Positions 20,195 through 52,421 of a stretch of 64,000 bases of DNA are shown here, piece after piece; position 1 is the first letter of the stretch, and every line of letters starts with the position of its first letter. The DNA is from a virus. The position numbers and the translations under genes are program-made. Below the pieces are notes generated by a model, which ran no database searches, was not told the DNA's origin, and was given only the letters and a program-made list of their open reading frames with translations. The stretch lies in the IMG/VR virus record IMGVR_UViG_3300005253_000054, positions 1-64,000 of that record; one strand, 5' to 3'.

Positions 20195-20210
20195 AATAAG
20201 GAGAAACGCG

Positions 20211-25200: not shown

Positions 25201-25204
25201 TAAT

Positions 25205-25749: not shown

Positions 25750-25770
25750 AACAATAGGAGGTAGCAAGTG

Positions 25771-27234: not shown

Positions 27235-27325
27235 CAGGAATATTTTCGTGACCGCCGACTGGGGTAAGAGCAAGTTTGCGATTAAAGCAAAAGAGAGAGC
27301 CGCAAAGGTTTAGTTTAGTGCGATC

Positions 27326-27363
27326 AACTGAAACCCCTTTTACTTTTAGGAGACAAGGAAATG
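27326..27363 (+). repeat. Direct repeat of a gene leader (second copy at 27712-27750)
   Basis: AACTGAAACCCCTTTTACTT through AGGAGACAAGGAAATG occurs before the genes at 27361 and 27748 with only one extra C in the second copy. It carries the ribosome binding site and start codon. It may be a duplicated translation leader or a regulatory site. The 126-base gap before the first copy shows no gene. Confidence 0.75.
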
Positions 27364-27717
27364 ACAACCGCAGCAGAACGAAACGCACGGGAAGATGGCT
27401 ACGAATTCACAGGCTGCTACGCAAGATCCTACGATAAGGACAAACTGAAACCCGATGCCGCGGAATATTGCCAGCAAGGGTACAGAGTCAGGACAGTGAA
27501 CGTCTATGGTGGGGGTTACAGCCTCTATATCAAGGACACGCCCAAGACCCTCAAAGCGAAAGAGGAGCAAGCCATAAAGGACGAAGAGGCCCGTCAAGCC
27601 ACGGCCATTGACGTGGCTGAATACCTCGTTGCGGTATCGAAACACATCGGCGATTTGGGTGCTTCCAAATTGCAGACACTCAAGCACGTTATCAAACGGG
27701 AATTGGGAGATAACTGA
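27361..27717 (+). CDS. Hypothetical protein
   Basis: 118 aa with AGGAGACAAGGAA before ATG. Charged Lys/Glu-rich middle (about 60-80) and a helical C-terminus. Not recognised. It shares its leader with the next gene. Confidence 0.55.
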   Translation: MTTAAERNAREDGYEFTGCYARSYDKDKLKPDAAEYCQQGYRVRTVNVYGGGYSLYIKDTPKTLKAKEEQAIKDEEARQATAIDVAEYLVAVSKHIGDLGASKLQTLKHVIKRELGDN

Positions 27718-27747
27718 AACCCCCTTTTACTTTTAGGAGACAAGGAA

Positions 27748-29130: not shown

Positions 29131-29148
29131 GCCTGTCTCGTTTTAGCT

Positions 29149-29172
29149 CCTTACCCTTTGTTGTGGGTAAGG
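29149..29172 (+). terminator. Hairpin after the DUF932 gene
   Basis: CCTTACCC, eight-base loop, GGGTAAGG: eight perfect pairs 18 bases after the stop. The downstream bases are not T-rich, so it may be a partial terminator or a 3'-end protector. Confidence 0.45.
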
Positions 29173-29213
29173 GGCATCAGTGGAAATCCAAATCAAGATA
29201 GGAGACTGAAGAA

Positions 29214-29417
29214 ATGAGTAGTCCTAAATTCCCCCACATAACTGTTCAACTGTCTGGTGAAAATGGAAATGCTTTCTCTATTATGAGGCGTGTAACTAAG
29301 GCAATGAGACGGGCGGATGTGTCAAAAGAGGATATTGATAAATTTCAGGAAGAGTCTATGAGTGGTGATTACGATAATCTTATGCAAGTCTGCATGAAGA
29401 CTGTAGATGTAGAATAA
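29214..29417 (+). CDS. Conserved-style small phage protein
   Basis: 67 aa with AGGAGACTGAAGAA before ATG. HITVQLSGENGNAFSIM and EESMSGDYDNLMQVCM resemble widespread short phage proteins of unknown function. Confidence 0.6.
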   Translation: MSSPKFPHITVQLSGENGNAFSIMRRVTKAMRRADVSKEDIDKFQEESMSGDYDNLMQVCMKTVDVE

Positions 29418-29429
29418 GGAACCCAAACC

Positions 29430-29702
29430 ATGCTAGACGCCAAAACAAAACGATTCGTCCGCGACCAGACCGAGGGAATGGATGATAAACAGGCTGCCAA
29501 ACAGATTCAGAAACTTATTCCCAATTACACAATGGATGAGGCAAGAGAAGTTGTTAGGGAATCCCGATACCAAATGAGGGTAGAGCATGAATATCATGCT
29601 GAAGGTATGAAACCCTGGAGGGTGTATACGTGGGACGGCCACAAGGAATTTCAAACCAAACACGAAACAGAGGCATGGATGGACGATCAAGAAAACCTCT
29701 AA
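29430..29702 (+). CDS. Hypothetical protein
   Basis: 90 aa with AAGGAACCCAAACC before ATG. Charged and helical at first (DDKQAAKQIQKLIPNYTMDEA), then aromatic. Not recognised. Confidence 0.5.
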   Translation: MLDAKTKRFVRDQTEGMDDKQAAKQIQKLIPNYTMDEAREVVRESRYQMRVEHEYHAEGMKPWRVYTWDGHKEFQTKHETEAWMDDQENL

Positions 29703-29724
29703 CCAGAAATAGGAGACTGAGGAA

Positions 29725-29991
29725 ATGTCCGAGTGGAGACAAAACACAAAAGATGGTCGGATTGTGGTTGCTGGAAAACGTCCAGGGCATGGTGCCGTTA
29801 AAGCAAACTGCCTTACGGAAATAGACGCAGTTCAAATTATCCGCGAGCACAACAGCCATGAGGAATTGTTGAAAATATGCAAAGCCGTTTATCTGGACAA
29901 ATATAGTCGGATGCCTAATGATCGGATAACTCTGATGATAAAAAAGGCTTTCAAACTTGCAGACGAAGATATTGATTGCCCATACCCATAA
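29725..29991 (+). CDS. Small phage protein with HNSH segment
   Basis: 88 aa with AGGAGACTGAGGAA upstream. IIREHNSHEELLKICKAV recurs as IVTEHNSHAALLTACKSL in the gene at 30318, so the two are paralogs. The family is common in phages; its role is unknown. Confidence 0.6.
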   Translation: MSEWRQNTKDGRIVVAGKRPGHGAVKANCLTEIDAVQIIREHNSHEELLKICKAVYLDKYSRMPNDRITLMIKKAFKLADEDIDCPYP

Positions 29992-30006
29992 AGGAGACCC
30001 CAGCCA

Positions 30007-30126
30007 ATGGACATTCAATTCGGAAACCTGATTATCCACTGTGCAACCACTTTCCCGTGGTGCATCGCATTTTGGGCAGTGGTTACTCAGATTGTCATTA
30101 TGATCCTTTATCGAATGAGGAGTTGA
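30007..30126 (+). CDS. Very small membrane protein
   Basis: 39 aa with AAGGAGACCCCAGCC before ATG. WCIAFWAVVTQIVIMILY is one membrane helix with a basic end (RMRS). Unknown role; could act at the host membrane. Confidence 0.5.
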   Translation: MDIQFGNLIIHCATTFPWCIAFWAVVTQIVIMILYRMRS

Positions 30127-30130
30127 GAGA

Positions 30131-30325
30131 ATGAAACACGGAAAAGAACACGATTTGGTATACGCCAATCTGCTTATCAACTTGCGAACGCAGGGCATTC
30201 CAGAGGAGCTTTGGCCGACTCACATCCGGATTATGGCCGAAACTACCGCGATTGCAATAGCCGAGGTGCTTCTCGAATCCATTACTCAGCGACGGGAACG
30301 CAAGAAAGGAGCATCCGATGGGTAA
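30131..30325 (+). CDS. Small hypothetical protein
   Basis: 64 aa, mainly helical with a basic C-terminus (QRRERKKGAS). It overlaps the next start by eight bases. Not recognised. Confidence 0.5.
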   Translation: MKHGKEHDLVYANLLINLRTQGIPEELWPTHIRIMAETTAIAIAEVLLESITQRRERKKGASDG

Positions 30326-30566
30326 GTGGGTACAAAACAAAGAGCGACCGTGGATCGTGGAGGATGAGGAAGGCGTGCGGATTGCCGAGTGCGATGGCGA
30401 AGGTGCATCCGAACGAATCGTCACCGAGCACAACTCCCACGCGGCGTTGCTGACGGCGTGTAAATCTTTGAGGCATCGGGCCAATGTCGGGTTTACGATT
30501 CGCGAGGGTGACGTGCATTGCAGACAGCTTGATGAAGCTATCGCCCTTACGGAGCCCTCGCTATGA
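30318..30566 (+). CDS. Small phage protein with HNSH segment, paralog
   Basis: 82 aa; AAGGAGCATCCG precedes ATG. Shares TEHNSHAALLTACKSL and the DxE-rich start with the gene at 29725. Its GC-richer codon use contrasts with that paralog, which suggests separate origins or strong drift. Confidence 0.55.
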   Translation: MGKWVQNKERPWIVEDEEGVRIAECDGEGASERIVTEHNSHAALLTACKSLRHRANVGFTIREGDVHCRQLDEAIALTEPSL

Positions 30567-30796
30567 CAGCACCAAACAAAGAACAAGTGTACAAGTACTT
30601 TGGCAACTTCAATCCGACGTCACCGATACAAATGATCGGCAAAACTCAAAGTGAAACCAAGGAGCGTGTAGAGCAGTTCCTTGCCCGATTCGAGCAGGGC
30701 ATGCCCCGAGAATGCGAAGCCGGAACGGCAGATGAGATGCGTCGCATGGGCTACGTTGGCTTGTATGCTTGGGTTGAAGAGGAGCCATCGGAATGA
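30563..30796 (+). CDS. Small hypothetical protein
   Basis: 77 aa, overlapping both neighbours by ATGA. KERVEQFLARFEQGMPREC is helical. Not recognised. Confidence 0.5.
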   Translation: MTAPNKEQVYKYFGNFNPTSPIQMIGKTQSETKERVEQFLARFEQGMPRECEAGTADEMRRMGYVGLYAWVEEEPSE

Positions 30797-31050
30797 CTTG
30801 GAAAACAACCTGGATGGATAAAAACGGTGGGACCAGAACCTACTGGACCCGATGGAAAGACGACAACACTATCGAGGTGGTCGTCAAATCCGCCGGATCA
30901 AAAATCAATTACAAGCAAATGCACAATCGAACCCCATACCAACACGTTAAGAAACTGGTCAGGATGCCATCCACCACTGTTTTGCTAGATGGCGAACCGA
31001 TGACCAAAGAGGATTTTTTCAAGATGTTAAAACAAAACTATAAGAAATAG
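30793..31050 (+). CDS. Small hypothetical protein
   Basis: 85 aa, Lys- and Trp-rich (MTWKTTWMDKNGGTRTYW), overall basic, so nucleic-acid binding is possible. Overlaps the upstream stop. Not recognised. Confidence 0.5.
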   Translation: MTWKTTWMDKNGGTRTYWTRWKDDNTIEVVVKSAGSKINYKQMHNRTPYQHVKKLVRMPSTTVLLDGEPMTKEDFFKMLKQNYKK

Positions 31051-31062
31051 GAGACTGAGAGA

Positions 31063-31254
31063 ATGGGTTGGTTTTGTAAACACAAGTGGGAAGTATTGGA
31101 CAAAACGGAGTCTCCATCCGCGTATGAGCAGTTAGTCGCAGCGGGCATACCACTTCCAGGTTCGCAATGGTGGGTTTATCAAAAAACGGTATTGGTAATC
31201 GTGGTATGTAAGGAATGTGGTAAGCTGAAGAGTTTCACAAAAGAGAATCTATAA
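31063..31254 (+). CDS. Small zinc-binding-like phage protein
   Basis: 63 aa with AGGAGACTGAGAGA upstream. CKHKWEVLDK near the start and VVCKECGKLK near the end give the CxHxW...CxxCG pattern of a widespread family of short phage proteins. Function unknown. Confidence 0.6.
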   Translation: MGWFCKHKWEVLDKTESPSAYEQLVAAGIPLPGSQWWVYQKTVLVIVVCKECGKLKSFTKENL

Positions 31255-31274
31255 CCAGAATCATTTCCCGGAAG

Positions 31275-31340
31275 ATGGGATTGTGTGGTCCCGAGCAATC
31301 CTGTCCCGCTTGTCGCGGCTCCTATCGTAATCGGGACTTG
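31275..31340 (+). promoter_or_regulatory. Structured leader RNA upstream of 31361 gene
   Basis: GGATTG (31278) pairs with CAATCC (31296); GTCCCG (31303) with CGGGAC (31332), enclosing CCGC/GCGG. The last stem is followed by TTGTTTTAG, so it may be a weak terminator or attenuator in the 106-base gap. Confidence 0.4.
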
Positions 31341-31360
31341 TTTTAGAAAGGATAATTACA

Positions 31361-32395
31361 ATGAACGATTTACCGGATGCGTTGACCATATTGCAACAAC
31401 AGATTGATTTTCTCAATGGTCAATTAGCAAATGAGCACGCAAAAAATATAAAGCTTGCGGATGAGCTTGGGATGTTGAAATGGGAGCAATTGGCAGAGGC
31501 CAACAACCCCGAGACGCCAGACACGGAAGCCGAGCCGGCGGAAGATGAAGACCGCGAATCGTTCGTTGACGCGATTTGCAGCCTTGCAGCCGCGGTTGAT
31601 GGTAAAGCCGAGGAGCTGCCGCCGTTGTCGGAATGGATGAAAACGGTCATCGACAAAGTCCGACATAGTAACGGCGTTGTCACGGTTGACGTCAGGGATT
31701 TGGTTAAAGCTATCCGGGAACTCGAAGCCAATCAACGGCCAGAGCCCGTAGACCTCGGAACGTCCATTCAGACCGCCATAGCTGCCCTTCCGGTGACTTT
31801 CCGTGCTGACGCCACTGAGTTGGCAGAGGTGGCTACAGCAGCCGGAGAGCCCGTCCTGGGGCTGCGTCTGCTGGTGTCGATGCGGGATGAGTTGATCGAC
31901 CGGGAGGCGACGTGCGGGAAATGTAAGCGATACAAGCCGGAGGTCGTCCCCCATGCGTCATGGTGCCAGCAGAAGAAAACGCGAGTCTACGCTAACACTA
32001 CAGCATGTGCGAAAATCCAACGCAAACCGCCGGAATCCAGCGAGGAAACTGGGAGTCTTGCGGAAGAGATACGACTAACGGGGCTCAAAATCAGGCTGGA
32101 TGCGGTGAAGAAAAAGGCGGAATCGGAATCCGAACCGGTCGGCAAGGCGAGGTTTTTTCGGGACACGCTGGGTCAGAACGTAAAACATGATCCGGTCTGG
32201 TGTATGTTGTCGGAAGAAGAGGGGATGTATTTCAACGGCAGATGCAGCACAGAAAGATCTAACTTCACAGTTAATGAACTGACCGATCGTAATGACGTCA
32301 AACAAATCACCGAAGCCCAAGCCTTCGCCGAGCTTGCCGACTGGCCGGAGGGTGAGGCGAAGTTGCGGGAGTTGATTGGAGGGAACGATGAGTAG
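31361..32395 (+). CDS. Hypothetical protein with Cys motifs
   Basis: 344 aa with AAAGGATAATTACA before ATG. N-terminal coiled coil (about 8-45), acidic Pro/Glu-rich linker, a helical middle, then CGKCKRYKPE and further Cys/His residues around residues 187-220 that may bind zinc. GC-rich codon use. Not recognised. Confidence 0.55.
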   Translation: MNDLPDALTILQQQIDFLNGQLANEHAKNIKLADELGMLKWEQLAEANNPETPDTEAEPAEDEDRESFVDAICSLAAAVDGKAEELPPLSEWMKTVIDKVRHSNGVVTVDVRDLVKAIRELEANQRPEPVDLGTSIQTAIAALPVTFRADATELAEVATAAGEPVLGLRLLVSMRDELIDREATCGKCKRYKPEVVPHASWCQQKKTRVYANTTACAKIQRKPPESSEETGSLAEEIRLTGLKIRLDAVKKKAESESEPVGKARFFRDTLGQNVKHDPVWCMLSEEEGMYFNGRCSTERSNFTVNELTDRNDVKQITEAQAFAELADWPEGEAKLRELIGGNDE

Positions 32396-32642
32396 AATAA
32401 CAAACTTGTTCCGACTTATTGTGCAACTCGCCGTGGGATTAACGGCGCTCGTGTTCGTGCTCGCCTGCGCGTTCGGGCCGATCCTTTTGCTGTTTGCTGT
32501 CCACGACTGGACCTTGGGGCCCGAGGAGTCCGATATGGCAGTCGCGTTAGTCGTCGCGGGAAACGGTACGGGTATTGCCGGTTGCCTGATTGTCACGAGG
32601 GTTGGGAGATTTTTTACCCGAGATAAAGGAGAGCACGAATGA
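32388..32642 (+). CDS. Small membrane protein with two hydrophobic segments
   Basis: 84 aa from ATG 32388, which follows GGAGGGAACG and overlaps the upstream stop. Hydrophobic helices at about 11-38 (LIVQLAVGLTALVFVLACAF) and 52-71. Basic C-terminus. Unknown role. Confidence 0.55.
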   Translation: MSRITNLFRLIVQLAVGLTALVFVLACAFGPILLLFAVHDWTLGPEESDMAVALVVAGNGTGIAGCLIVTRVGRFFTRDKGEHE

Positions 32643-33019
32643 TTCAGCGATTCCTCACTGGACCACTTAACGCAGTGGAAGTGGTCCTCTTCACCGACGC
32701 CGAAGCCGACAAGGCCGAAGCGGTTGCTGCTGCCGTCGAGAAGGCGACGGCGGAGCTGCGGGCGGAGTTGGAAACATACCGTCTACGCGAGCCAGAACTC
32801 CATTCGTTCACGGAACTAGAACATCGAGAACTGCGGGCGGAGTTGGTGGAGCGAACCAGGCAACTATTTCACGTTAAGAGTGGATGGGCTGGCCACGATG
32901 AACCAACCTGGTGGCGTGCCGATACGAGCAGATTTGCCGAAAAGCTTGGCGACCGCTTGGTTGAACTCGGTGCGTATGAGAAACGAACGGACCCGGTGTT
33001 GATGTATCGGCCGACTTGA
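32639..33019 (+). CDS. Hypothetical coiled-coil protein
   Basis: 126 aa; overlaps the upstream stop by ATGA. Ala/Glu-rich helix at about residues 20-75, then a Trp-rich domain (TWWRADTSRFAEKLGDRL). Not recognised. Confidence 0.5.
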   Translation: MIQRFLTGPLNAVEVVLFTDAEADKAEAVAAAVEKATAELRAELETYRLREPELHSFTELEHRELRAELVERTRQLFHVKSGWAGHDEPTWWRADTSRFAEKLGDRLVELGAYEKRTDPVLMYRPT

Positions 33020-38554: not shown

Positions 38555-39991
38555 ATGAGTACATTGCAGATTGAGCGTGGATTAGCTGTGGAATTGCTAG
38601 TGGCAATTGGATTCAAGACGGCGGGACAAATGAAGGATGGGAAGCTGAATAAGAAGATTTGCCAGTTGGATAAGATTGGCAAGCCTGATGACGCTGTGTT
38701 GGATGAGGATCAGGAATCCCTGCTGGCCGAAATTTTGCAAACGATTGAGGATGGGGATAAGATTACTTTGGTTGATGAACTCCCTCCGGACACCGCTGAT
38801 GATGATGCTGATACTGATACTGATGTTGACGGAGAAGGTGAGGATACTCCCGAAACTGTTAGTGACAATGATAGAGAAGAGGGGGAGGATACCCCTGATC
38901 CTAAACCAAAGAAGAAGGGGAGAGGACGGCCGAGGGGTTCTAAGAACAAGGATGGTGGGGAGAAGCCTGAGAAGAAAAATGTGCCGGAAGATGTTATTGG
39001 CGACGATGTTTTGTATAGTGAGGTATCTTCTGGTATCGAACTTGTTACGGCGAAGAGAGCCAAAAAGTTGCTAGGTTGGAAGGAAGAGGCGGACGATGAA
39101 GATTTCGGCAGTAGCTTTCTTTACCGAGGATTGAATAAGAAGAAAGTCCGTTGTGCAAATGTGCTTTCTAATCGACCATTTCGATTGGCTATTGCCAAAC
39201 GATATGCAAATGAGATTCTACGTGGAAAGTGGAAACTTAATGGCGAGTCTGTAATTATTGACAGGTTGGGGCAGGTTCAGGACGCACAACATCGGCTGGT
39301 TGGTCTTGTACTGGCCGAAGACATGCGACAAGACGACGAGGAGAAGTGGGGAGAAAAGTCTGTTGCAATAGAGACGATAATCGTTCTCGGTATTGAAGAG
39401 AGTAAGGGGGTTGTTGATACTCTCAACCTCGGTCTGAAACGATCCTTGAAGGATGTTCTATTTCGCAACCAGGAAATTGTGCCTGATGAAAATTCCAATG
39501 TGAAAAAGAAATTGTCGGGTGTTCTGGCTGGTGCTGTTCGGTTGGCTTGGTTGTATGGCTCTGGCCGAAAGGTATCTGATGCCCCACACTTTCCGCATAG
39601 CGAAGCCCTGGATTTTCTGGCGGATAATCCTGATATCGTTTTGACGGCAGAGCGGATTACCGATTTGAACGATAGCGGTGATGAGAAGAATCGTATTAGT
39701 AGTTACATCACACTTGCGTATGCTACTGGTCTGGCCTATCTAATGGAAGAGGCCAGAAGTGAAGAGGATTCTACAGAATTTTGGACGGCTTTTGCTGATG
39801 GTAGTAAGAAAATGCACCCTGTTCGATTGGCATTAAATAGTGTTGCGACCAGCACAGGTTATGGTCGTGATGCTGTGGTAAGTGTGATTTTCAAGGCATT
39901 CAATCTGATGACAGCAGGAGAAGAGATTACAGCAAAGGCAGTTAAGCCGAAGAAGGGTAAGTTGGTAACGATTGCTGGGGAGGAGAAGTAG
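38555..39991 (+). CDS. ParB/Srx-like (D-x-QHR) protein with AT-hook
   Basis: 478 aa. An acidic Asp/Glu/Thr-rich linker (about 78-112) leads into an AT-hook-like KKKGRGRPRGSKNK at about 118-131. IDRLGQVQDAQHRLVGLVLA at about 229 matches the DGQHR signature of ParB/sulfiredoxin-fold proteins (here DAQHR). These bind or act on nucleotides and DNA. Possible roles are genome partition, transcription control or nuclease. AAGGGAGACGAAAAG precedes ATG. Confidence 0.6.
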   Translation: MSTLQIERGLAVELLVAIGFKTAGQMKDGKLNKKICQLDKIGKPDDAVLDEDQESLLAEILQTIEDGDKITLVDELPPDTADDDADTDTDVDGEGEDTPETVSDNDREEGEDTPDPKPKKKGRGRPRGSKNKDGGEKPEKKNVPEDVIGDDVLYSEVSSGIELVTAKRAKKLLGWKEEADDEDFGSSFLYRGLNKKKVRCANVLSNRPFRLAIAKRYANEILRGKWKLNGESVIIDRLGQVQDAQHRLVGLVLAEDMRQDDEEKWGEKSVAIETIIVLGIEESKGVVDTLNLGLKRSLKDVLFRNQEIVPDENSNVKKKLSGVLAGAVRLAWLYGSGRKVSDAPHFPHSEALDFLADNPDIVLTAERITDLNDSGDEKNRISSYITLAYATGLAYLMEEARSEEDSTEFWTAFADGSKKMHPVRLALNSVATSTGYGRDAVVSVIFKAFNLMTAGEEITAKAVKPKKGKLVTIAGEEK

Positions 39992-39992
39992 A

Positions 39993-41006
39993 ATGAAACT
40001 CAATAGAGAAGCTTTGTTGCAAAAGTTGCAATCTATTTCCCCGGGCTTATCGACAAAGGATGTAATCGAGCAATCGTCCACCTACGTTTTCAAGGATGGT
40101 CGAATCATTACGTTCAATGACGAGGTGTCTTGTAGCATTGACAGCCCTATCGAAGATGCAGAATGCTCCGTGCCATCCAAACCTTTGCTTAGTATCCTTG
40201 AAAAACTCAAGGATGAAGAAATTACAGTGGAAGTTACGGATGATTATTTCTGTGTCAAAGGTAAGAATAACAGAACCCGAATCAGGATGGATAAGGAAAT
40301 CCTACTTCCAATCGAGGCGGTAGAACCACCTGATAAGTGGAAGAAACTACCATCTGATTTCTGTGAGGCCGTCGGATTGGTTCAGACTTGTGCTGGTGAT
40401 GATGCTAGTGATTTCAAAATGACATGTGTTAGGATCACTAACAAATACTTGGAGGCATGCGATAATCATCAGATGATTCGATGGAATACGGAGACACCTA
40501 TTAAGGATTGTCTTCTCAAAAGCGGATCGGTTAAACACGTCTCTCGGTTGGGTATGTCCAAGGCATCCGTTACTGATAGTTGGGTTCACTTCAAAAACGA
40601 AACTGGATTGGTATTGAGTTGTCGAAAATGGAACAATGAGGATTACCCCGATCTTAGTGAGATTCTAAAGACTACTGGAGTTAAGTCTGTACTGCCTGTT
40701 GGATTGGGCGAGGCTGTGGAAAGGGCCTCTGTTTTCTGCGAATCGGATATTACCAGTGGCTCGGTGGAGGTGAAGATTAAAGGATCGAAATTGGTATTGA
40801 AAAGCTACGGTCCTTACGGAGATTATGAAGAGCGTACGAAGATCAAGTATGATGGGGAGCCAATGCGATTTCGTGCGTCCCCGAGGTTGTTAGCTGCCAT
40901 CGCTTCACGTACGAAGGATTGTATTCTAACCGAGACGCGGTTGAAGACGGAGACGGATAAATGGACTTGTGTTGTTTGTCTTGCGAGAGTTGGGAAGGAT
41001 GAGTGA
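39993..41006 (+). CDS. dnaN: Sliding clamp, DNA polymerase III beta-like
   Basis: 337 aa from ATG 39993 behind GGAGAAG. The three-domain clamp character is visible: KDGRIITFNDEVSCSI, SKPLLSILEKLKDEEITVEV and FCVKGKNNRTRIRM in domain 1, and repeated strand patterns to VKIKGSKLVLKSYGPYGDYEE in the last part. It tethers the polymerase to DNA and needs the clamp loader encoded at 50580. Divergent, slightly shorter than bacterial beta. Confidence 0.75.
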   Translation: MKLNREALLQKLQSISPGLSTKDVIEQSSTYVFKDGRIITFNDEVSCSIDSPIEDAECSVPSKPLLSILEKLKDEEITVEVTDDYFCVKGKNNRTRIRMDKEILLPIEAVEPPDKWKKLPSDFCEAVGLVQTCAGDDASDFKMTCVRITNKYLEACDNHQMIRWNTETPIKDCLLKSGSVKHVSRLGMSKASVTDSWVHFKNETGLVLSCRKWNNEDYPDLSEILKTTGVKSVLPVGLGEAVERASVFCESDITSGSVEVKIKGSKLVLKSYGPYGDYEERTKIKYDGEPMRFRASPRLLAAIASRTKDCILTETRLKTETDKWTCVVCLARVGKDE

Positions 41007-41085
41007 TGTTTGATTACTAGATATTTTTGGTTTCGTTGTTACTCTGTTACTGTGTATGAACTTTATTTTTTGGAAGGGGTTTGTC

Positions 41086-41598
41086 ATGTTTCGATTATGT
41101 TTAGTGTTTTTGGTGTTGCTAGTTACTAGGTCAGTTTTGGCAGTTGACGGTCCGATTCCTGAGCCATCATCTGATGTGGGAACCATTCATATCGGACCAG
41201 AGAATTCAGGTGTTTCTCCTGATGATGTATTGGGCGATTATGAGCAGGATGGAGTAACCAACGGAAGAAATCATTACTTTAATGGGGAGTATTTTTTGTG
41301 GTGGCAGCCTGCTGCTGATCTTAATATTTGGCTTTTGACGGACACACCAGGAGTAGATGGAAATGCCGCTGTTTGGGTACAAATCAATGTTGACGAAAAT
41401 CAAGCTGTAGATGCTAGTCCGTATTACCCATCTACTAATGCTTCTGGTCCCAATCTCCGGGCAGCAATCAAGCCAATCCCCGAACCCTCAACCTTTACCC
41501 TCGCCGCCCTTGGCTTTTTGTCATTGGCGTTCTATGGCCGGTGGAGAAGGAAGACTAGTCTATTGGAGCAGATATCCCAAACTGTTAGGATAAATTGA
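41086..41598 (+). CDS. Secreted protein with PEP-CTERM sorting signal
   Basis: 170 aa from ATG 41086, chosen for GGAAGGGG upstream and because it begins with a signal peptide (MFRLCLVFLVLLVTRSVLA, cleavage after LA). Near the C-terminus PIPEPSTFTLAALGFLSLAF, then YGRWRRK, is a textbook PEP-CTERM signal: PEP motif, membrane helix, basic cluster. Host exosortase would process it and send it to the surface or matrix. A short tail after the basic cluster is unusual. A surface role, such as superinfection exclusion, is conjecture. Confidence 0.8.
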   Translation: MFRLCLVFLVLLVTRSVLAVDGPIPEPSSDVGTIHIGPENSGVSPDDVLGDYEQDGVTNGRNHYFNGEYFLWWQPAADLNIWLLTDTPGVDGNAAVWVQINVDENQAVDASPYYPSTNASGPNLRAAIKPIPEPSTFTLAALGFLSLAFYGRWRRKTSLLEQISQTVRIN

Positions 41599-41610: not shown

Positions 41611-41637
41611 TGTAGGCGGGTTACCTACATACGTTTT
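41611..41637 (+). terminator. Weak terminator-like hairpin
   Basis: TGTAGG, seven-base loop, CCTACA, then TACGTTTT, directly after the PEP-CTERM gene. Six pairs and a short T run, so termination is uncertain; it would let this gene be expressed separately. Confidence 0.4.
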
Positions 41638-41832: not shown

Positions 41833-43014
41833 ATGCCCGGTTTCTTCACCCCAGACCAGATAAGCACCACCCCGGTCATCCCGCGATGCCCCTCTTGTGG
41901 TTTGCGATACAAGTGCAACTCGCCTAGTATGCCCTACACTGGGGAGGGTAAGAGACGTGTCCTAATCGTCGCAGAGGCCCCCGGTAGGGATGAGGATCAA
42001 GAGGGTACCCAACTCATTGGGAAGTCGGGGAAGCATTTAAGACGCATCCTCGCGAAGCTGGGGGTGGATTTGGACCGAGACTGTTGGAAAACCAACGCTC
42101 TTACCTGTTGGCCTGGGGAAGGGAATCCCAAACCTACCGATAAACAAATCAGCTATTGCCGAGCTAATCTCTTACGAACTATCCAAGAGTTGGAACCCAT
42201 TACCATCATTCTATTAGGTGGTACGGCTGTCAAGAGTTTGATAGGCTACGTTTGGAAAGAGGCCGTTGGTAGGATCGGTCGATGGGTAGGATGGCAGATA
42301 CCCGATAGACGATTCAATACTTGGATTTGTCCGACGTGGCATCCATCCTATTTGCTACGACAGGATGATAAGGTTCTGGAGTTGTGGTTTCGTAGGCATC
42401 TAAAGGCTGCTTTTGAGAAAGAGGGGAAGCCTTATGTAGATACTGGTCTGAGATATGTTCCTGACGTATTTATAGAACATGATCCGAAAACAATAGTAAA
42501 ATTAGTCGATGATTTTATTTGGATCAATAAACCACTTGCTTTTGATTACGAGACAACCAGTATAAAGCCAGAGGGGGATTGGGCTGAGATTGTTTGTTGT
42601 TCTTTTAGTGATGGAGAAGACACGTTCGCGTTCCCTTGGCAGGGTGAAGCAATCCCAGCGATGGGCCGACTGCTGAGAAGCAAAGTACCCAAGATTGCAT
42701 GGAATCTGAAAATGGAAGACCGTTGGACGCGGAAAGAATTTGGCCATCCCGTTAGGAATTGGTTGTGGTGTGGGATGCAAAACTCCCATATCCTAGATAA
42801 CAGACGTGGGATAACTTCTCTCAAGTTTCAAGCATACGTGCAACTAGGTCAAGAGTCCTATGACAATCATATCAAACCTTTTCTAAAAGGTAAACCGGGA
42901 CAGGCGAATCGGATTAGGGAAGTAGATACTGACAAATTGCTAAGGTATTGCGGGATGGATTCGTTAAATGCTTTTGAGATTGCAATGAAACAAATGGAGA
43001 TAATGGGGATGTAA
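41833..43014 (+). CDS. Uracil-DNA glycosylase fused to DnaQ-like 3'-5' exonuclease
   Basis: 393 aa. The N-terminal half is a family 4/5-type UDG: zinc or iron-sulfur Cys (CPSCGLRYKC), VLIVAEAPGRDEDQEG, LIGKSGKHL, TNALTCWP, LLGGTAVKSL and CPTWHPSYLLR. From about residue 215 comes the exonuclease of family A polymerases: FDYETTS (Exo I), IAWNLKMEDRW (Exo II) and RYCGMDSLNAFE (Exo III). It supplies proofreading and uracil removal to the polymerase encoded separately at 43935. The polymerase palm is missing from this polypeptide, hence a split gene. Confidence 0.85.
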   Translation: MPGFFTPDQISTTPVIPRCPSCGLRYKCNSPSMPYTGEGKRRVLIVAEAPGRDEDQEGTQLIGKSGKHLRRILAKLGVDLDRDCWKTNALTCWPGEGNPKPTDKQISYCRANLLRTIQELEPITIILLGGTAVKSLIGYVWKEAVGRIGRWVGWQIPDRRFNTWICPTWHPSYLLRQDDKVLELWFRRHLKAAFEKEGKPYVDTGLRYVPDVFIEHDPKTIVKLVDDFIWINKPLAFDYETTSIKPEGDWAEIVCCSFSDGEDTFAFPWQGEAIPAMGRLLRSKVPKIAWNLKMEDRWTRKEFGHPVRNWLWCGMQNSHILDNRRGITSLKFQAYVQLGQESYDNHIKPFLKGKPGQANRIREVDTDKLLRYCGMDSLNAFEIAMKQMEIMGM

Positions 43015-43747: not shown

Positions 43748-43938
43748 CGGATGAGGAATCTAAACGATTCGAGAAACAGAAAATCCCGTTTGGTGAATTC
43801 GAGAATCTTACTGTTGACAAGATATTTTTCAATGAAGAGTTAAGAAGTCGATTGGAATGGTACGCGGATGAGGAATCGTTTGTAGACAAATTGAGGCGGT
43901 ACTTAAATTCAGATAGGGTGAAGAGGTTATTACGATGA
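43744..43938 (+). CDS. DUF3820-like small protein
   Basis: 64 aa. KIPFGEFENLTVDKIFFNEE resembles the MPFGK(Y/H)KG..l.ev pattern of DUF3820/exonuclease-associated short domains, followed by a helix. Such proteins often sit beside DnaQ-like nucleases, as here. It overlaps both neighbours by ATGA. Confidence 0.5.
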   Translation: MTDEESKRFEKQKIPFGEFENLTVDKIFFNEELRSRLEWYADEESFVDKLRRYLNSDRVKRLLR

Positions 43939-45344
43939 AACCCGCAACACCCCAAGCAATGGAATTGATGATGAAAGGGGCCATAGCCTTATCTCAAGTA
44001 GAGGCGGACGGGATGCGGATCGACGTTGATTATCTTGATAAGACCATCAAAAAAGTTACGAGGAATATCGCACGACAGACAGAGAAGCTAAAGGAATCAG
44101 AGGAGTGGAAAGTTTGGAAGAAACTCTATGGAAGCAAAATGTCCTTAGAGAGTGGACCACAGTTAGGCAAAGTTCTGTTCGACAAGATGGGTCACAAGTG
44201 TATAGCCAGAACGAAAACGGGCAAGCCAGCAACGGACCAGACTGCTTTGGAGCAACTAGACATCCCATTCGTAAGGAGATTGTTGAGCATTAAGAAGAAA
44301 AAGAAGATGCTCAGCACGAATCTCAAAGGAATCAGACGTGAGGTAGTAGATGGTATTGTAAGACCTTCATTCAATTTGCACCTTGTTACTACATACCGAT
44401 CAAGTGCTGATCGTCCTAACTCAAAAAATATACCAGTTAGGGATAAGAAGATAGGGAGGATGGTACGAAAGGCGTTCATTCCGAGGGATGGTCATGTTTT
44501 GGTAGAGATTGATTACTCTGCCGTAGAATTTAGGGTTGCATCGTGTTTTTGGCAAGATGAGGCAATGGTAGACTATGCCAGTAATCCCAATAAGGATATT
44601 CATAGGGATATGGCTGCCGAGTGTTATATGCTGAGAGAAGAGCAAGTAACAAAGGATGCCAGATTCTATGCTAAGAATCAATTTGTTTTTCCAGAGTTGT
44701 ACGGTAGTTGGTATGGACAATGTGCCATAAATTTATGGGATGCCATTGGAAAAGGAAAGTTGGAAGTTGGTATGACAGATGATGAGGAGTGTCGATGGTG
44801 TGGTGTGGGTTGTCGTAGTGATGTATGTTCAGTTTGTGGGGGAAAGCAGAAACGGGGATTGAAAGATCACCTGAATTCTAAAGGGATTACGGGTGTAGAG
44901 GGATTCAAAAGGGTTGTTCAAGATGCAGAGAATACTTTTAATGAGATGTTTCACGTATATAACGAAAAGAAAGAGGAATGGTGGGAAACCTATCTGAAAA
45001 GGGGTTATATTCGTTTGATGACCGGGTTTGTTTGTCAGGGAGTTATGAGTCGCAATAAGGTTTACAATTACCCCACTCAAGGTCCGGGTTTCCACTGTTT
45101 GCTTTGGTCCCTGATTCAGATGGTAAAGCGATTGCGAAAGGTGAAGTCGATGGTGATTGGAGAAATATACGATAGCCTTATCTTGGACGTACATAGGTCT
45201 GAGTTGGACGATGTTTTGCAAATGGCTAAACAAGTGATGACGGTCGATTTGTTGAAAGCGTGGGACTGGATTATTTGCCCTATGGAAATCGAGGCTGAGG
45301 TTGGCGAGGAAAATTGGGCAGATAAGAAAGAGGTGGAGATATGA
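43935..45344 (+). CDS. polA: DNA polymerase I family A, palm/fingers/thumb
   Basis: 469 aa without exonuclease. Motif A is VEIDYSAVEFRV at about 196-207; the O-helix DARFYAKNQFVFPELYGS at about 240 keeps Arg, Lys and Tyr with two extra residues between Lys and Tyr; motif C is GEIYDSLIL, where YDS replaces the usual HDE. A zinc-finger-like insert (CRWCGVGCRSDVCSVCGG) lies at about 279-296. It is the replicative polymerase, working with the exonuclease at 41833, the clamp and the clamp loader. Start overlaps upstream by ATGA. Confidence 0.9.
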   Translation: MKPATPQAMELMMKGAIALSQVEADGMRIDVDYLDKTIKKVTRNIARQTEKLKESEEWKVWKKLYGSKMSLESGPQLGKVLFDKMGHKCIARTKTGKPATDQTALEQLDIPFVRRLLSIKKKKKMLSTNLKGIRREVVDGIVRPSFNLHLVTTYRSSADRPNSKNIPVRDKKIGRMVRKAFIPRDGHVLVEIDYSAVEFRVASCFWQDEAMVDYASNPNKDIHRDMAAECYMLREEQVTKDARFYAKNQFVFPELYGSWYGQCAINLWDAIGKGKLEVGMTDDEECRWCGVGCRSDVCSVCGGKQKRGLKDHLNSKGITGVEGFKRVVQDAENTFNEMFHVYNEKKEEWWETYLKRGYIRLMTGFVCQGVMSRNKVYNYPTQGPGFHCLLWSLIQMVKRLRKVKSMVIGEIYDSLILDVHRSELDDVLQMAKQVMTVDLLKAWDWIICPMEIEAEVGEENWADKKEVEI

Positions 45345-45518: not shown

Positions 45519-45719
45519 ATGAAAGTTGGGAAAGAAGTTAGTGTGACTCCAGTATGTCAAGGGTGGTGTAGTGTGTTTGCTACAAATTTAGTTCCATTAA
45601 CGGTATCAATACTTGGTAAAACGAAATTAGAAGAAAAATCACAAGTGGAATTTGCTAAAGAAGTTTATGAATGTTATCGACAGAAACAAGCCAAGGAACG
45701 TGGAGAATTAGAAGATTGA
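45519..45719 (+). CDS. Small hypothetical protein
   Basis: 66 aa from ATG 45519. Beta-rich half with two Cys (VCQGWC), then a helix with CYRQKQAKERGE. Stop overlaps the TTG of the intein-bearing helicase. Confidence 0.45.
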   Translation: MKVGKEVSVTPVCQGWCSVFATNLVPLTVSILGKTKLEEKSQVEFAKEVYECYRQKQAKERGELED

Positions 45720-48700
45720 ATTATCAAACATTCCTCAAAACGAAACGACTACGAACCGATCCTAAAGGATTCGATCCGATATGGTTACCAGATTGGTTAT
45801 TCGGATTCCAAAACCATTTGTGTGATTGGTCGATTCGTTTGGGCAGGTCTGCTTTATACGAGGACTGTGGGCTTGGCAAAGGCAGTCCTCCCAATATGCC
45901 TGTTTTAACTCCCACTGGATTTGTCCCAATAGGCAGTTTGGAAATTGGTGATTCTGTTATAGCTTCTGATGGAAAATCCTATGATGTAAAGGGGGTTTAC
46001 TTCAAACCGAGGCAGGATGTTTTCAGATTATGGTTTAGTGATGGTGTTTCGTTAGTAGTGGATTCTGACCATTTGCATATATGCCGAACAAATAATGACA
46101 GACAAAGAGATAAGCCCTGGCGTGTTTTGAGTACCAAGGAATTGTTGGAATGTAATAATTTGAGATATGGTAGTGATGGGAAGTCTCGTAATTACGATAT
46201 TCCCGTTGTTGGTCCAGTGGAGTTTTCAGTGGATTGCCCCAAAACATTGACACCATATATTATCGGAGCCTTGTTGGGAGACGGTTGTACTTCTCAACCA
46301 AGTATGATTCAATTCACATCTGCGGATTCTGAGATTGTCAACAGGATCAATAATGAATTGTTGGGTGGTGTTGAATTAGTTTATAAAGATCGTTATGAAT
46401 ACCGGTTAAAAACTGGTAAGACTGGTTGTGTGAAACATCCTATTCGTGCTTTTTTGTATCGGATTGGGATGATGGGGAAATTGTCGTATCAAAAAAGTAT
46501 TCCAAAAGAATACCTTATGTCGAAACGAATAGAGGATAGGTTGGATTTGCTTCGTGGTTTGATGGACACGGATGGGTACATAATGAAGTGTGGTACTTCT
46601 CAGTTCTATTCTGTTAGTAGAAAGCTTGCGACAGACGTGGAGTTTTTGGTCAGAAGTCTTGGGGGTGTTCCCACTTTTTCTAGGAAGCAAACCAGTTTGA
46701 ATGGAGAACGAAAGAGGGATTGTTATACTGTTACATTTTCATTAAAGACCTTCAATCCTTTCTTTCTGTCGAGAAAAGCAGAAAGATGGAATCCCGATCC
46801 TAGGGACAATGGTAGGTGGATTGATTCCATTGACTATGAGGGACAATCTGAGACAGTGTGTATTTCTGTTGATTCTCCTGATTCTAGTTATGTCACTAGG
46901 AGTTTCATTGTTACACACAATACTCCCCAGCAATTAGTATGGGCTGAGAATGTGGTTAGACACACAAACAAACCCGTTTTGATTGTGGCACCTTTGGCTG
47001 TATCCGCTCAGTTTGTTACAGAGGCAGAGAAGTTTGGGGTAGGGATACATCGTAGCCGTGATGGTAGATTGAAAAAGGGAATCAATGTTACGAATTACGA
47101 GCGATTACATCATTTTGATCCGAAGAGATTAGCTGGAATATCCTGCGACGAGTGTTTCCCTCCGGGAACGGCAATAGATGTTGTGAACCCCCTTGACAAT
47201 TCTTTAGAAAAGAAGTATATTGAAGATATTGCACGGGGTGACCAAATTCTCAATGCTTCTGGAGTAGATCATGTCAAACATATATGGAAGAGAAAAATCA
47301 ACGGGGCGGTTCAAGTCGGCACCGAAGGATCTAAAATTACCTGTAGCGAAAATCATCCATTCTTTACCTTGCATGGTTGGAAATTCGCACGAGATTTACG
47401 AGCCGGAGATTGTGTCATGGAGACAGCCTCGGCAATGTACTTGGTGCGGGGAGATTTTCAATCCGAAATATGTAGCGAACAAGATGGCGAGATTTTGCGG
47501 AACATCTTGCTCAGCGAAATGGCGGATGAATACACCGGAACACAAAGCAAAAGTACACAATCCAACTGTTGCCAAAAAAAGAGGAAAATCGAAAGCATTA
47601 TGGTTCAGAGGAGGATCAGCAACAGCCAAAAAAGAACTCAAGCGGATAGCCGAGTTGTGTCCGATGAAAGATCCGAAAGTGAGAGCGAAGGTGTCCAAAC
47701 GATTGAAAGAGATAGGACACAAGCCGAGGATTCAGGGAGGGAATGGGAGACCTTTGACGGAGCCGCAACAGATGCTATTAGATTTGTTGGGTGGGGAGTG
47801 GGTTGCAGAATATCCAATTACCCTTGGGAAAAAGATACCCGGATATCCAACGAATTACAAGGTAGATATAGGTTGCCAATTACGAAAAACAGCAATCGAG
47901 TTGGATGGGCATTCTCATTATTCCAGAAAAGAATTGGATCAGAAGAAAGACGAAATGCTGGCTTCGTTAGGGTGGACAGTGTTGAGGTTTTGGAATTGGG
48001 ACATCCTAGATTGGATAAATGGAGGGATGAAAAAGGAGACGTCTATTTCTATGATATTGAAGCAACACGACATCCATCTTTCAGTGTGAATGGTTTGTTA
48101 GTACACAATTCGTCTATCCTAAAAAACTTTGATGGAAAGATGCGAAGAAGAATTACAGATTTTGTATCATCTATCAATTATCGTCTCCTATGCACGGCCA
48201 CCCCAGCACCAAATGACCACATGGAATTGGGAACATCCTCCGAAGCATTGGGTGTAATGAGCCGTGGTCAGATGCTAGGAATGTTTTTCGTTAATGGTGG
48301 GGAAACAACGCAACAATGGTTGCTAAAAGGTCACGCGAAGAAACGATTCTGGCAATGGATGGGAACGTGGGCCAGGGCTATTCGTATGCCATCTGATCTT
48401 GGTTTTGATGACGGGGATTTTATTTTACCAGAGTTGATAATGAAACAGCATCTTGTACCTAGTGAGGTTACGGATGGATTCTTTCCTACTATGGCTGTTA
48501 CGTTGGATGAGCAGAGGGCAGAACGAAAACGGACGATGCAGGCTAGGTGCGAAAAAGTGGCTGAGATTGTTCCTAATGATAGGCCATTTGTTGCTTGGTG
48601 TCATCTGAATCCAGAATCAGATTTGCTGGAGAAGTTGATTCCTGATGCCGTTCAAGTTAGTGGTAGTATGAAAGATGAGGTGAAAGAGGAGCGATTGAAA

Positions 48701-49042
48701 GCGTTTGCTGATGGGCAGATAAGGGTACTGGTTACTAAACCAAAAATTGCTTCATTCGGTCTTAATTGGCAGCACTGTGCTGATATGTCATTCTTCCCGT
48801 CTCATAGTCATGAGCAATTTTATCAGTCTTTACGACGATGTTATCGGTTCCAACAAGAGAATTCAGTAACTTGTAATATCGTTACGAGTGAGGCTGAGAG
48901 TAGAGTTTTGGATAACATGATGCGGAAAGAGCGGCAGGCTGTGGAAATGTATGATGGGATCGTAAGAGAAATGGGTAGGGCTTTGGATGAATCGAATGGG
49001 CAAAAAGGAAACGAGGAAACGAGTATACCGTCATGGTTGTAA
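45716..49042 (+). CDS. SNF2-like helicase interrupted by two inteins
   Basis: 1108-aa precursor, TTG 45716 start overlapping the upstream stop (TTGA) behind TGGAGAATTAGAAGA. Removing both inteins leaves 442 residues: 55 + 77 + 310. The mature Walker A is CGLGK-TPQQLVWAE and motif II is SCDE-SSILKNFDG, each cut by an intein. Further motifs are CTATPAPND (III), VAWCHLNPESDLLEKL (IV), ASFGLNWQHC (V) and FYQSLRRCYRFQQ (VI). Neither ATPase motif is complete without splicing, so activity depends on both excisions. The methyltransferase at 49033 overlaps the 3' end. Confidence 0.85.
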   Translation: MNYQTFLKTKRLRTDPKGFDPIWLPDWLFGFQNHLCDWSIRLGRSALYEDCGLGKGSPPNMPVLTPTGFVPIGSLEIGDSVIASDGKSYDVKGVYFKPRQDVFRLWFSDGVSLVVDSDHLHICRTNNDRQRDKPWRVLSTKELLECNNLRYGSDGKSRNYDIPVVGPVEFSVDCPKTLTPYIIGALLGDGCTSQPSMIQFTSADSEIVNRINNELLGGVELVYKDRYEYRLKTGKTGCVKHPIRAFLYRIGMMGKLSYQKSIPKEYLMSKRIEDRLDLLRGLMDTDGYIMKCGTSQFYSVSRKLATDVEFLVRSLGGVPTFSRKQTSLNGERKRDCYTVTFSLKTFNPFFLSRKAERWNPDPRDNGRWIDSIDYEGQSETVCISVDSPDSSYVTRSFIVTHNTPQQLVWAENVVRHTNKPVLIVAPLAVSAQFVTEAEKFGVGIHRSRDGRLKKGINVTNYERLHHFDPKRLAGISCDECFPPGTAIDVVNPLDNSLEKKYIEDIARGDQILNASGVDHVKHIWKRKINGAVQVGTEGSKITCSENHPFFTLHGWKFARDLRAGDCVMETASAMYLVRGDFQSEICSEQDGEILRNILLSEMADEYTGTQSKSTQSNCCQKKRKIESIMVQRRISNSQKRTQADSRVVSDERSESESEGVQTIERDRTQAEDSGREWETFDGAATDAIRFVGWGVGCRISNYPWEKDTRISNELQGRYRLPITKNSNRVGWAFSLFQKRIGSEERRNAGFVRVDSVEVLELGHPRLDKWRDEKGDVYFYDIEATRHPSFSVNGLLVHNSSILKNFDGKMRRRITDFVSSINYRLLCTATPAPNDHMELGTSSEALGVMSRGQMLGMFFVNGGETTQQWLLKGHAKKRFWQWMGTWARAIRMPSDLGFDDGDFILPELIMKQHLVPSEVTDGFFPTMAVTLDEQRAERKRTMQARCEKVAEIVPNDRPFVAWCHLNPESDLLEKLIPDAVQVSGSMKDEVKEERLKAFADGQIRVLVTKPKIASFGLNWQHCADMSFFPSHSHEQFYQSLRRCYRFQQENSVTCNIVTSEAESRVLDNMMRKERQAVEMYDGIVREMGRALDESNGQKGNEETSIPSWL
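45881..46921 (+). mobile_element. Intein 1: LAGLIDADG type, class-3-like, in Walker A
   Basis: 347 aa. The conserved GLGK/T Walker A and alignment with the other two inteins place residue 1 at Gly (GSPPNMPVLTP) rather than Cys or Ser; starting at Ser would leave GLGKGT. It ends FIVTHN before Thr. The in-frame endonuclease motifs are IIGALLGDG and LLRGLMDTDGYI. A Trp in PWRVLSTKEL, Cys in TVCISVDSPD and Thr in VTHN match the W-C-T signature of class 3 inteins, which do not need a nucleophile at position 1. Confidence 0.85.
47153..48109 (+). mobile_element. Intein 2 in helicase motif II, with endonuclease in another frame
   Basis: 319 aa from Cys (CFPPGTAIDVV) to LLVHN before Ser. Splicing blocks: A at the start, B ITCSENHPFFTLHGWKFA at about 64-81, F VYFYDIEATRHPSFSV and G GLLVHN. 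Between B and F the intein frame is open but has no recognisable domain; the same DNA in the +1 frame encodes a Vsr/DUF559-like nuclease (47271-48089). Class 1 by its Cys1. Confidence 0.85.
47271..48089 (+). CDS. Vsr/DUF559-like homing endonuclease nested in intein 2 (+1 frame)
   Basis: 272 aa. ATG 47271 has GGAG at 47261-47264 with a six-base spacer; GTG 47412 is an alternative. The domain-like part starts near residue 50 with CTWCGEIFNPKYVANKMARF and CGTSC (zinc finger), then basic helices. YKVDIGCQLRKTAIELDGHS, HYSRKELDQKKDEMLASLGW and TVLRFWN are the PD-(D/E)XK-derived core of Vsr/DUF559 nucleases (D...ELDGxxH). These features are absent from the intein frame, so this is the true coding frame for the middle of the element. 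Confidence 0.8.
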   Translation: MSNIYGREKSTGRFKSAPKDLKLPVAKIIHSLPCMVGNSHEIYEPEIVSWRQPRQCTWCGEIFNPKYVANKMARFCGTSCSAKWRMNTPEHKAKVHNPTVAKKRGKSKALWFRGGSATAKKELKRIAELCPMKDPKVRAKVSKRLKEIGHKPRIQGGNGRPLTEPQQMLLDLLGGEWVAEYPITLGKKIPGYPTNYKVDIGCQLRKTAIELDGHSHYSRKELDQKKDEMLASLGWTVLRFWNWDILDWINGGMKKETSISMILKQHDIHLSV

Positions 49043-50564: not shown

Positions 50565-50579
50565 CCGAAAGGATTGACG

Positions 50580-52421
50580 ATGCCCCCAGAACTCTATCGT
50601 AAATACCGACCTACCAAATTCTCAGAGGTATTAGGTCAACCTGAAGCAATCAAGACCCTAAACGATTGGGGCAAGCAAAAAGCGATACCCCACTTCCTGC
50701 TATTCACAGGCCCTAGTGGGTGTTTGCGTGGGGATACGAAGATATTTGATCCGGTGGATTCTAGTGATTTGTCTATTCGGGAGCGTTGGAGGATTGGTCA
50801 TCCTTTCCATGTTTTGTCGAGGAACGAGGATAACAGGCTGGTAGTGGCGGAAGCGATGCCACCGGTCCGCCATTCTCCAGATTGGATGTATCGTGTAAAA
50901 ACTTCTGAATCGCTTTTTTACGTAACGTCCGAACACCAGTTCCTCGTTGACACTGGTGAGTACCTTTCATTGAGGGAACTTTACGCTCGGAGATTCGACG
51001 GAGTCCATCTTCTGACCACTTGGGACATTTCCCAAGCAATTCAACACCAAGATGCTCACCATTGTTTGCAAACAAGATTAGATTATTCGGATCGTTATCG
51101 GTCTTATCCCCGTTTTTATGATGAACGACTTCCGATTCAGTCAGATATCGATTCAAAATACGCTCAAGCACCAAACGATGTTCTAGGACGTAACCGTTTC
51201 TCGCATTTGGATGTTTTGGCATCCGTATCAAAACATAACCATCCCCGTCAATTACACGACCACCTTTCCAGGCAGGATTATCGACACCACGTTGGAAAGA
51301 ATACTGTGGACGAATTTGGGTGTTTGAACGTTTCAACGATTCACGAACGTTTTGACGTTTTGTCTTCAGACGTTTTGCGATTTGTTTCTGAGTCCAACCG
51401 TCTTGATACATGCCCGAAACTAACTTGTCCCGTTCTGGAGTCCAAATACGACGCCTGTGTGGATAGAAGCCTTTTGGCATTGTCTTCTCCTTGTTTTGAT
51501 AGGACCATATTCTCTAGTACCATTATACAAGATATCTCCCAAACAAGCAAGCAGCCCTACTATGATTTTCATGTTCCTATTTACGAGAATTATTGGGCTG
51601 GTGGTTTGATTCATCATAATTGTGGCAAAACGACTTTAGCCCGAATTCTTCGGAAGAAACTCAAGTGTTCCGACCACGATTTTATAGAGGTGAATGCCGC
51701 CGAGACAAACGGGATTGATATGGTGCGGTCTATCGCGAGGGTAATGGGCCTTGCACCGATGATGGGCAGGTGTAGGGTGTGGCTCATAGATGAGGCTGCT
51801 AGGCTCACTAAGGATGCTCAGAGTGCTTTCCTCAAGATGCTGGAGGATACGCCCGAACACGTCTATTTTATGCTGGCGACAACTGATCCTCAGAAGTTAC
51901 TACCCACGATTATGACAAGGGCATCTGAGATTAAGGTAAAGGCTTTATCTTCTAAGGATATGACGGATTTGGTTAGAGGCGTACGTCATCAAGAGGAGCA
52001 AGCCAATTCTGAAGAGGATTTGGTTGGAATATCCGATGACGTTTGTGATAAAATTATTGACATAGCAGACGGATCGGCAAGGAAAGCATTGGTCCTATTG
52101 CATCAAGTGATTGGTGAAGGGGACGAGGAGAAGCAGTTAGCGGTCTTGCAACAGGCAGATAGCAAGCAACAGGCAATTGAGATTTGCCGATTGCTAATGA
52201 AAGCGAATACATCGTGGAAGCAGATGGCTAAGCTGCTTAGAGCCGTTGACGACGAGCCGGAGGGTATCAGGCGGCTGATGTTGGCTTATATGACCAAGGT
52301 AGGGCTGAGTGGTAATAAGAGGGCCATCGTGTGTCTTGAGGCGTTTGAGGAGCCTTATTTCAATACTGGCAGGGCAGGATTGGTTTTGTCCTGTTGGAAT
52401 GTAATCAATGGAGGTGGATGA
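50580..52421 (+). CDS. Clamp loader ATPase (DnaX/RFC-like) with an intein
   Basis: 613-aa precursor from ATG 50580; TTG 50574 is possible. After removal of the 300-aa intein the protein is 313 residues. N-extein: YRKYRPTKFSEVLGQ, the typical clamp loader start. Walker A is GPSG-CGKTT, cut by the intein. Then VWLIDEAARLTKDAQSAFL (Walker B), LEDTP and FMLATTDPQKLLPTIMTRA (sensor 1 and the SRC-like region). It loads the clamp of 39993 onto primed DNA. Without splicing the P-loop is destroyed. Confidence 0.9.
   Translation: MPPELYRKYRPTKFSEVLGQPEAIKTLNDWGKQKAIPHFLLFTGPSGCLRGDTKIFDPVDSSDLSIRERWRIGHPFHVLSRNEDNRLVVAEAMPPVRHSPDWMYRVKTSESLFYVTSEHQFLVDTGEYLSLRELYARRFDGVHLLTTWDISQAIQHQDAHHCLQTRLDYSDRYRSYPRFYDERLPIQSDIDSKYAQAPNDVLGRNRFSHLDVLASVSKHNHPRQLHDHLSRQDYRHHVGKNTVDEFGCLNVSTIHERFDVLSSDVLRFVSESNRLDTCPKLTCPVLESKYDACVDRSLLALSSPCFDRTIFSSTIIQDISQTSKQPYYDFHVPIYENYWAGGLIHHNCGKTTLARILRKKLKCSDHDFIEVNAAETNGIDMVRSIARVMGLAPMMGRCRVWLIDEAARLTKDAQSAFLKMLEDTPEHVYFMLATTDPQKLLPTIMTRASEIKVKALSSKDMTDLVRGVRHQEEQANSEEDLVGISDDVCDKIIDIADGSARKALVLLHQVIGEGDEEKQLAVLQQADSKQQAIEICRLLMKANTSWKQMAKLLRAVDDEPEGIRRLMLAYMTKVGLSGNKRAIVCLEAFEEPYFNTGRAGLVLSCWNVINGGG
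50773..51480 (-). CDS. HNH homing endonuclease antisense within intein 3
   Basis: 235 aa on the minus strand, the only minus-strand gene supported. ATG at 51480 has AAGGAG about eight bases upstream. An N-terminal helix-turn-helix (DGWTQKQIAKRLKTKRQNV) is followed by GYVLIRMPKHPNARNGYVLE and ESEVVHHKNGDKTDNDPNN, a complete HNH_3-type core ending LILFANNGEH. The C-terminal tail reads the complement of intein block A/B codons and may be dispensable. It would cut intein-free alleles so that the element spreads by repair. Confidence 0.85.
   Translation of the reverse strand: MPKGFYPHRRRIWTPERDKLVSGMYQDGWTQKQIAKRLKTKRQNVRESLKRSNTQIRPQYSFQRGVDNPAWKGGRVIDGDGYVLIRMPKHPNARNGYVLEHRLVLERILNRYLTESEVVHHKNGDKTDNDPNNLILFANNGEHLGVELLGKCPKWSEDGLRRISERKVPSMKGTHQCQRGTGVRTLRKKAIQKFLHDTSNLENGGPVASLPPLPACYPRSSTKHGKDDQSSNAPE
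51522..51550 (-). promoter_or_regulatory. Minus-strand promoter for the nested HNH gene
   Basis: On the minus strand: TTGCTT (51550-51545), a 17-base spacer, and a perfect TATAAT (51527-51522), about 40 bases before the ATG at 51480. The plus strand here codes for the intein's C-terminal part. Confidence 0.55.

Follow-up and report, generated by a model that had tools for sequence, protein, structure and literature searches.

The gene at 41086-41598 encodes a 170-aa protein that carries an N-terminal signal peptide and a C-terminal PEP-CTERM tag, and its body is, by sequence comparison, a homologous domain in a new context, shared with a 425-aa protein of the phage's own structural module. 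The gene lies in a window of 64,000 nucleotides, the whole stretch of DNA covered by an earlier note, which spans positions 1 to 64,000 of the viral record IMGVR_UViG_3300005253_000054. As the best explanation, to which we give a probability of roughly 40%, the tagged copy would be displayed on the infected cell or its matrix as a secreted self-decoy derived from a virion domain.

The 100,283-base record ends in a 121-bp direct terminal repeat, which gives a circular or circularly permuted genome of about 100,162 bases. Profile matches are those of a tailed phage, in which HK97-type capsid, portal, and tape measure scored over their cut-offs, and protease and terminase under theirs. An assembly chimera of host DNA, named beforehand in the earlier note as the outcome that would undo a phage origin, is ruled out by the closing of the genome on itself together with the paralogy between the gene body and the phage's own structural-module domain, and the gene can be taken as phage-encoded. 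The reading frame runs exactly from the ATG at 41086 to the TGA at 41596-41598, with the ribosome-binding-like site GGAAGGGG at 41072-41079 on its 5' side; with an alternative in-frame ATG at 41056 as the start, the protein would be 10 residues longer. The features of the gene are as follows.

41086-41598, + strand: whole gene of the predicted secreted 170-aa PEP-CTERM protein; open reading frame with a ribosome-binding-like site, PF07589 above the gathering score
41086-41142, + strand: predicted signal peptide MFRLCLVFLVLLVTRSVLA; hydropathy peak 3.29 over 11 residues, V/A at -3/-1
41152-41169, + strand: first PIPEPS copy, before the domain (residues 23-28)
41164-41475, + strand: domain common to the 170-aa protein and the 425-aa structural-module protein; 74% amino acid and 77% DNA identity over 313 bases, sharp edges
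41473-41553, + strand: PEP-CTERM tag made up of PIPEPS, membrane helix, and basic cluster RWRRK; PF07589 over residues 130-155, GC3 18/27
41554-41595, + strand: 14-residue extension TSLLEQISQTVRIN after the basic cluster, read from the translation
41611-41629, + strand: weak hairpin with a 6-bp stem, probably not significant; 1 found against 0.8 expected in a consensus scan, fold z = -0.6

The earlier note had read this gene as coding for a secreted PEP-CTERM protein, and the predicted sorting signals bear this out. The signal peptide was called from Kyte-Doolittle hydropathy (11-residue window) and the residues at -3/-1, and its predicted cleavage falls between SVLA and VDG without a lipobox cysteine, so that it does not qualify as a lipoprotein anchoring signal. 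The C-terminus of the protein matched PF07589 with 24.6 bits (E=2.5e-5; gathering score 20.7), while none of the specific NCBIfam PEP-CTERM families scored above its cut-off. A six-frame search of the whole record returned the tag as its sole PF07589 match (E=3.3e-7), which makes a chance match very unlikely. As expected of PEP-CTERM proteins, the top hydropathy windows coincide with the signal peptide and the C-terminal peak with the tag, no membrane helix lies between them, and the C-terminal signal combines the PEP motif, membrane helix, and basic cluster. The tag departs from the very C-terminus by the 14 residues beyond its basic cluster. The shared domain is bracketed by two copies of PIPEPS (residues 23-28 and 130-135; 41152-41169 and 41473-41490), which differ synonymously in 5 of 6 codons, and any repeated 6-mer arose in 12 of 20,000 shuffles of the protein. 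The claim that the gene has its own gap is confirmed, with 79 nt upstream and 60 nt downstream to the next open reading frame, but its supposed hairpin does not hold up: the 6-bp stem is no stronger than chance, and the stretch 3' of the gene folds no better than shuffled sequence (z = -0.6).

Exosortase (PF09721) was not found in the phage record. Since the phage thus supplies both sorting signals but no exosortase, an exosortase-bearing host is implied, and the suggestion that the gene points to a type of host is upheld in this sense. Placement of the protein on the surface or in the matrix, as the earlier note had also proposed, would follow from the two signals and from what is generally known of PEP-CTERM proteins, for which an exosortase step has been proposed (PMC1569441). 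In other searches for the host, the exact tag motif PEPSTFTLAALG had zero matches in all genomes, plasmid matches in the host-from-tag search were weak, the terminase and polymerase gave no matches or distant ones only, and CsrA was uninformative about the host. The phage CsrA (window 56222-56533) scored over the NCBIfam cut-off and has an unusually long C-terminus.

Searching the record with the 170-aa protein returned a second location at 99827-100171 (E=6.8e-50, pairwise). The body of about 104 aa (residues 27-130) is 74% identical to the domain at record 99833-100147, with a well-kept core (77 of 104 residues), and the DNA similarity stops abruptly at both ends. This second copy belongs to the following gene.

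Record 98978-100255, outside the window: full gene of the 425-aa structural-module protein
1-93, + strand: 3' end of the same gene, repeated via the 121-base overlap of the record ends

In the 425-aa protein, an N-terminal domain precedes a long Ser-rich stretch, after which come the shared domain and further Ser-rich sequence. Its gene lies downstream of the capsid, connector, and tail-completion genes and is closely followed by the major tail gene (window 108-533), a position that suggests a place in the virion; this position is next to tail genes and not at a known tail tip, and the protein is not known as a receptor-binding protein. Two other phages have the same gene order and the same protein with its Ser-rich tail, and in both the domain is absent. 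Additionally, a 2095-residue open frame at record 72334-78618 combines an N-terminal LamG-like lectin fold (PF13385) with very long Ser-rich SISTSSQSS repeats.

No known family for the body was found in Pfam, PHROGs, PADLOC, or PDB sequences. Direct searches with the domain returned no relative in INPHARED phages, PLSDB plasmids, IMG/VR, or 84,980 species genomes, the last being covered with the strict patterns that are the only way in which species and host genomes could be searched. Relatives of the domain were reached only via a search with the capsid protein, which yielded 12 relatives. One of these, G011, whose capsid protein is 72% identical, carries two copies of the domain, one in the orthologous protein at the same place and one in a 730-aa fibre-like protein, in both cases between Ser-rich linkers. 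The structural-module copies of G000 and G011 are 34-74% identical to the secreted copy, with homology over the whole domain, and a four-row profile of the domain, A8, matched the 170-aa protein with E=2.7e-53, the protein being one of the profile's own rows. The Ser-rich linkers are missing from the 170-aa protein, where PIPEPS and the targeting signals form the flanks, and the domain stands alone as a predicted secreted protein. Modules in viral record G008 (L013) showed suggestive homology (E=8.7e-6 for one genome), in a record that was chosen by a query motif and is therefore not independent. Two AlphaFold2 runs gave poor models (pLDDT of 49 and 51) that showed nothing beyond beta-hairpins, and no match to them in the PDB fell below E=0.6.

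The gene is surrounded by replication genes, as previously stated, with the clamp before it and the UDG/exonuclease and PolA genes after it.

39972-41006, + strand: upstream neighbour, DNA polymerase processivity factor (clamp); phrog_947, E=2.6e-33
41833-43014, + strand: downstream neighbour, DNA polymerase-related protein with a UDG-like N-terminus and an exonuclease part; phrog_17, E=5.3e-27

The order of clamp and then UDG/exonuclease gene is kept in three relatives, which have different genes in between, and from this comparison the 41086-41598 gene is placed in a variable slot between clamp and polymerase genes. Several other features of the genome were observed. The PolA at window 43935-45341 also gave weak DpoZ model matches, and a PurZ/PurA-like synthetase at record 84407-85516 (L004:1407-2516) scored 221.8 bits with the PurZ model (cut-off 300), so that the two together make an aminoadenine (Z) genome possible. 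In the helicase protein at window 45671-49039, separate stretches match intein-splicing, LAGLIDADG, and Hint, consistent with an intein-like insertion, and a clamp-loader-type AAA protein at window 50574-52418 is broken after its P-loop and has a weak intein match. At window 18500-33000, GC rises to as much as 0.61 (about 0.43 elsewhere) in a block with many small open reading frames that was possibly acquired. Two similar radical-SAM-like proteins (FQIVFTYxCNxxCxxCDR) lie at window 13308-14018 and record 80476-81219, one of them among the successive glycosyltransferase- and methyltransferase-like genes of 7601-18009. The start of a small protein without family match at window 58081-58584, MLRRAFMKLMGATPLLPLLPLP, resembles a twin-arginine-type signal.

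If the protein acts as a self-decoy, it would be exported by Sec during infection, processed at its PEP tag by the host exosortase, on which it would depend because the phage has none of its own, and retained at the cell surface or within the exopolysaccharide. In that position the secreted domain would occupy the ligand of the virion-borne domain, for which a surface or matrix glycan is our guess; the presence of the same domain on virion and infected cell suggests that both bind one ligand. Its occupancy would lower adsorption by the same or related phages (superinfection exclusion) and would let progeny escape capture by the dying cell and its matrix. The exclusion of rivals raised in the earlier note becomes, as a hypothesis, more specific through the shared domain. 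That the decoy coats both cell and matrix via the host exosortase, blocks adsorption of its own kind, and frees progeny is a version that we hold more tentatively still. A precedent for the proposed role is Llp of phage T5, an envelope protein made by the phage that prevents adsorption of T5 itself and protects progeny from debris (PMC4728585). The likeness is one of proposed role only and no homology is claimed: Llp is a lipoprotein and acts by binding the receptor FhuA, whereas the 170-aa protein has a PEP-CTERM sorting tag and a copy of a virion-type domain.

The shared domain could instead serve matrix anchoring, a reading that we regard as unlikely but worth weighing. The domain would bind itself or a shared polysaccharide, and the displayed copy would hold virions in the biofilm or alter aggregation, aiding local spread and not exclusion. 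PEP-CTERM proteins do have a role in bound exopolysaccharide and flocculation (PMC9850573), and in G011 the domain sits on long flexible Ser-rich tethers in two different structural-type proteins, in the manner of an adhesive module. Self-association of the domain is hypothetical, however, and trapped progeny are usually costly for a lytic phage.

Differences between the two copies bear on a further reading, improbable in our view, in which the protein is a secreted effector unrelated to adsorption that shields the infected cell against grazers or competitors or modifies the cell surface, the sharing of the domain reflecting a convenient fold. With the two G011 copies used as outgroups, derived residues in the secreted and virion-type copies were counted as 11:1 (chi-square 8.3) and 8:2 (3.6), by which the secreted copy is the faster-evolving one, and it is also more acidic (net charge -11 vs -8). 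Both properties would fit an effector, but the kept domain core suggests that the same binding property has been retained.

The opposite direction of copying, which we consider improbable to a similar degree, would have the domain start out in a host PEP-CTERM protein. The phage would have acquired it together with the tags, and virion proteins would later have received copies of it that serve as a mimic or adhesin. GC3 is higher in the tag (0.67, 18/27) than in the domain (0.31) or the clamp (0.46; p = 0.025 for tag vs clamp), a weak hint that the tag region has another source than the rest of the gene; PEP-CTERM genes stand near phage genes in two other viral contigs, and the restriction of host genome searches to strict patterns leaves room for this origin. 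Yet the low GC3 belongs to the domain itself, the window copy is the faster-evolving one, the patterns used found no relative in the species genomes, and in G011 the domain is already present at the corresponding position of the orthologous virion protein.

This shared position and the further copy in the fibre-like protein of G011, together with the lack of any PEP-CTERM match in 17 related records (many of them fragments, so that absence is not proof), argues that the virion location is probably ancestral and the tagged copy derived. On the most parsimonious reading, the domain of virion proteins would have been copied into the clamp-polymerase slot and the targeting signals added, and the relative-rate counts are in line with this direction. 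Of the comparisons proposed earlier, that with host proteins for recent capture leaves a hint for the tag region, while the domain probably came from a virion-type protein rather than a host protein, and that with related phages recovered the domain in G011 but not the tag.

Between the two domain copies, dS is 0.72 and dN/dS is 0.26 (bootstrap 0.14-0.49). The copies differ at only 27 residues, compared with at least 37 changes in neutral runs of one branch at half depth, and therefore the secreted copy is probably constrained too, assuming that synonymous changes split evenly between the branches. A non-functional by-product, in which chance recombination joined a structural-protein domain to secretion signals with no role, is very unlikely: the fusion is known from one genome and has an atypical C-terminal extension, but signal peptide, domain, tag, and ribosome-binding-like site are all intact, dN/dS is well below 1, and the whole gene stayed stop-free in just 0.5% of neutral simulation runs at d = 0.36.

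Compared with the PEP-CTERM/exosortase (EpsH) proteins of Gram-negative bacteria (PF07589; Haft et al. 2006, PMC1569441), the 170-aa protein has the same signal peptide, PEP motif, membrane helix, and basic cluster, and is likewise encoded by a single gene with a gap before it. It differs in being phage-encoded, in having a phage structural-module domain as its body, in the 14 extra residues after the basic cluster, and in the lack of an exosortase in the same genome. This phage is not alone in being linked to a PEP-CTERM gene, since the two further viral contigs from IMG/VR (L014:1383-2021 and L015:2858-3535) encode PEP-CTERM proteins of the classic kind close to portal, capsid, or terminase genes. 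Both proteins have the signal peptide and the PF07589 tag and are encoded next to phage structural genes, but their bodies are unrelated to the shared domain, and on such short contigs they may be either phage cargo or host genes at a prophage edge. In the open-licence literature searched, we found no description of a phage-encoded PEP-CTERM protein or of any fusion between a virion domain and a sorting tag of bacteria; each component has precedents, in PEP-CTERM proteins on one side and receptor blockers of phages on the other.

If the self-decoy reading is true, a domain of the phage particle would have been turned into a cell-surface product by the addition of two sorting signals, of which one is particular to bacteria with exosortase, and would offer a testable case of superinfection exclusion by a self-decoy. 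It would also offer a way toward the virion domain's ligand, which both copies should bind, and would tie an uncultured phage to exosortase-bearing hosts.
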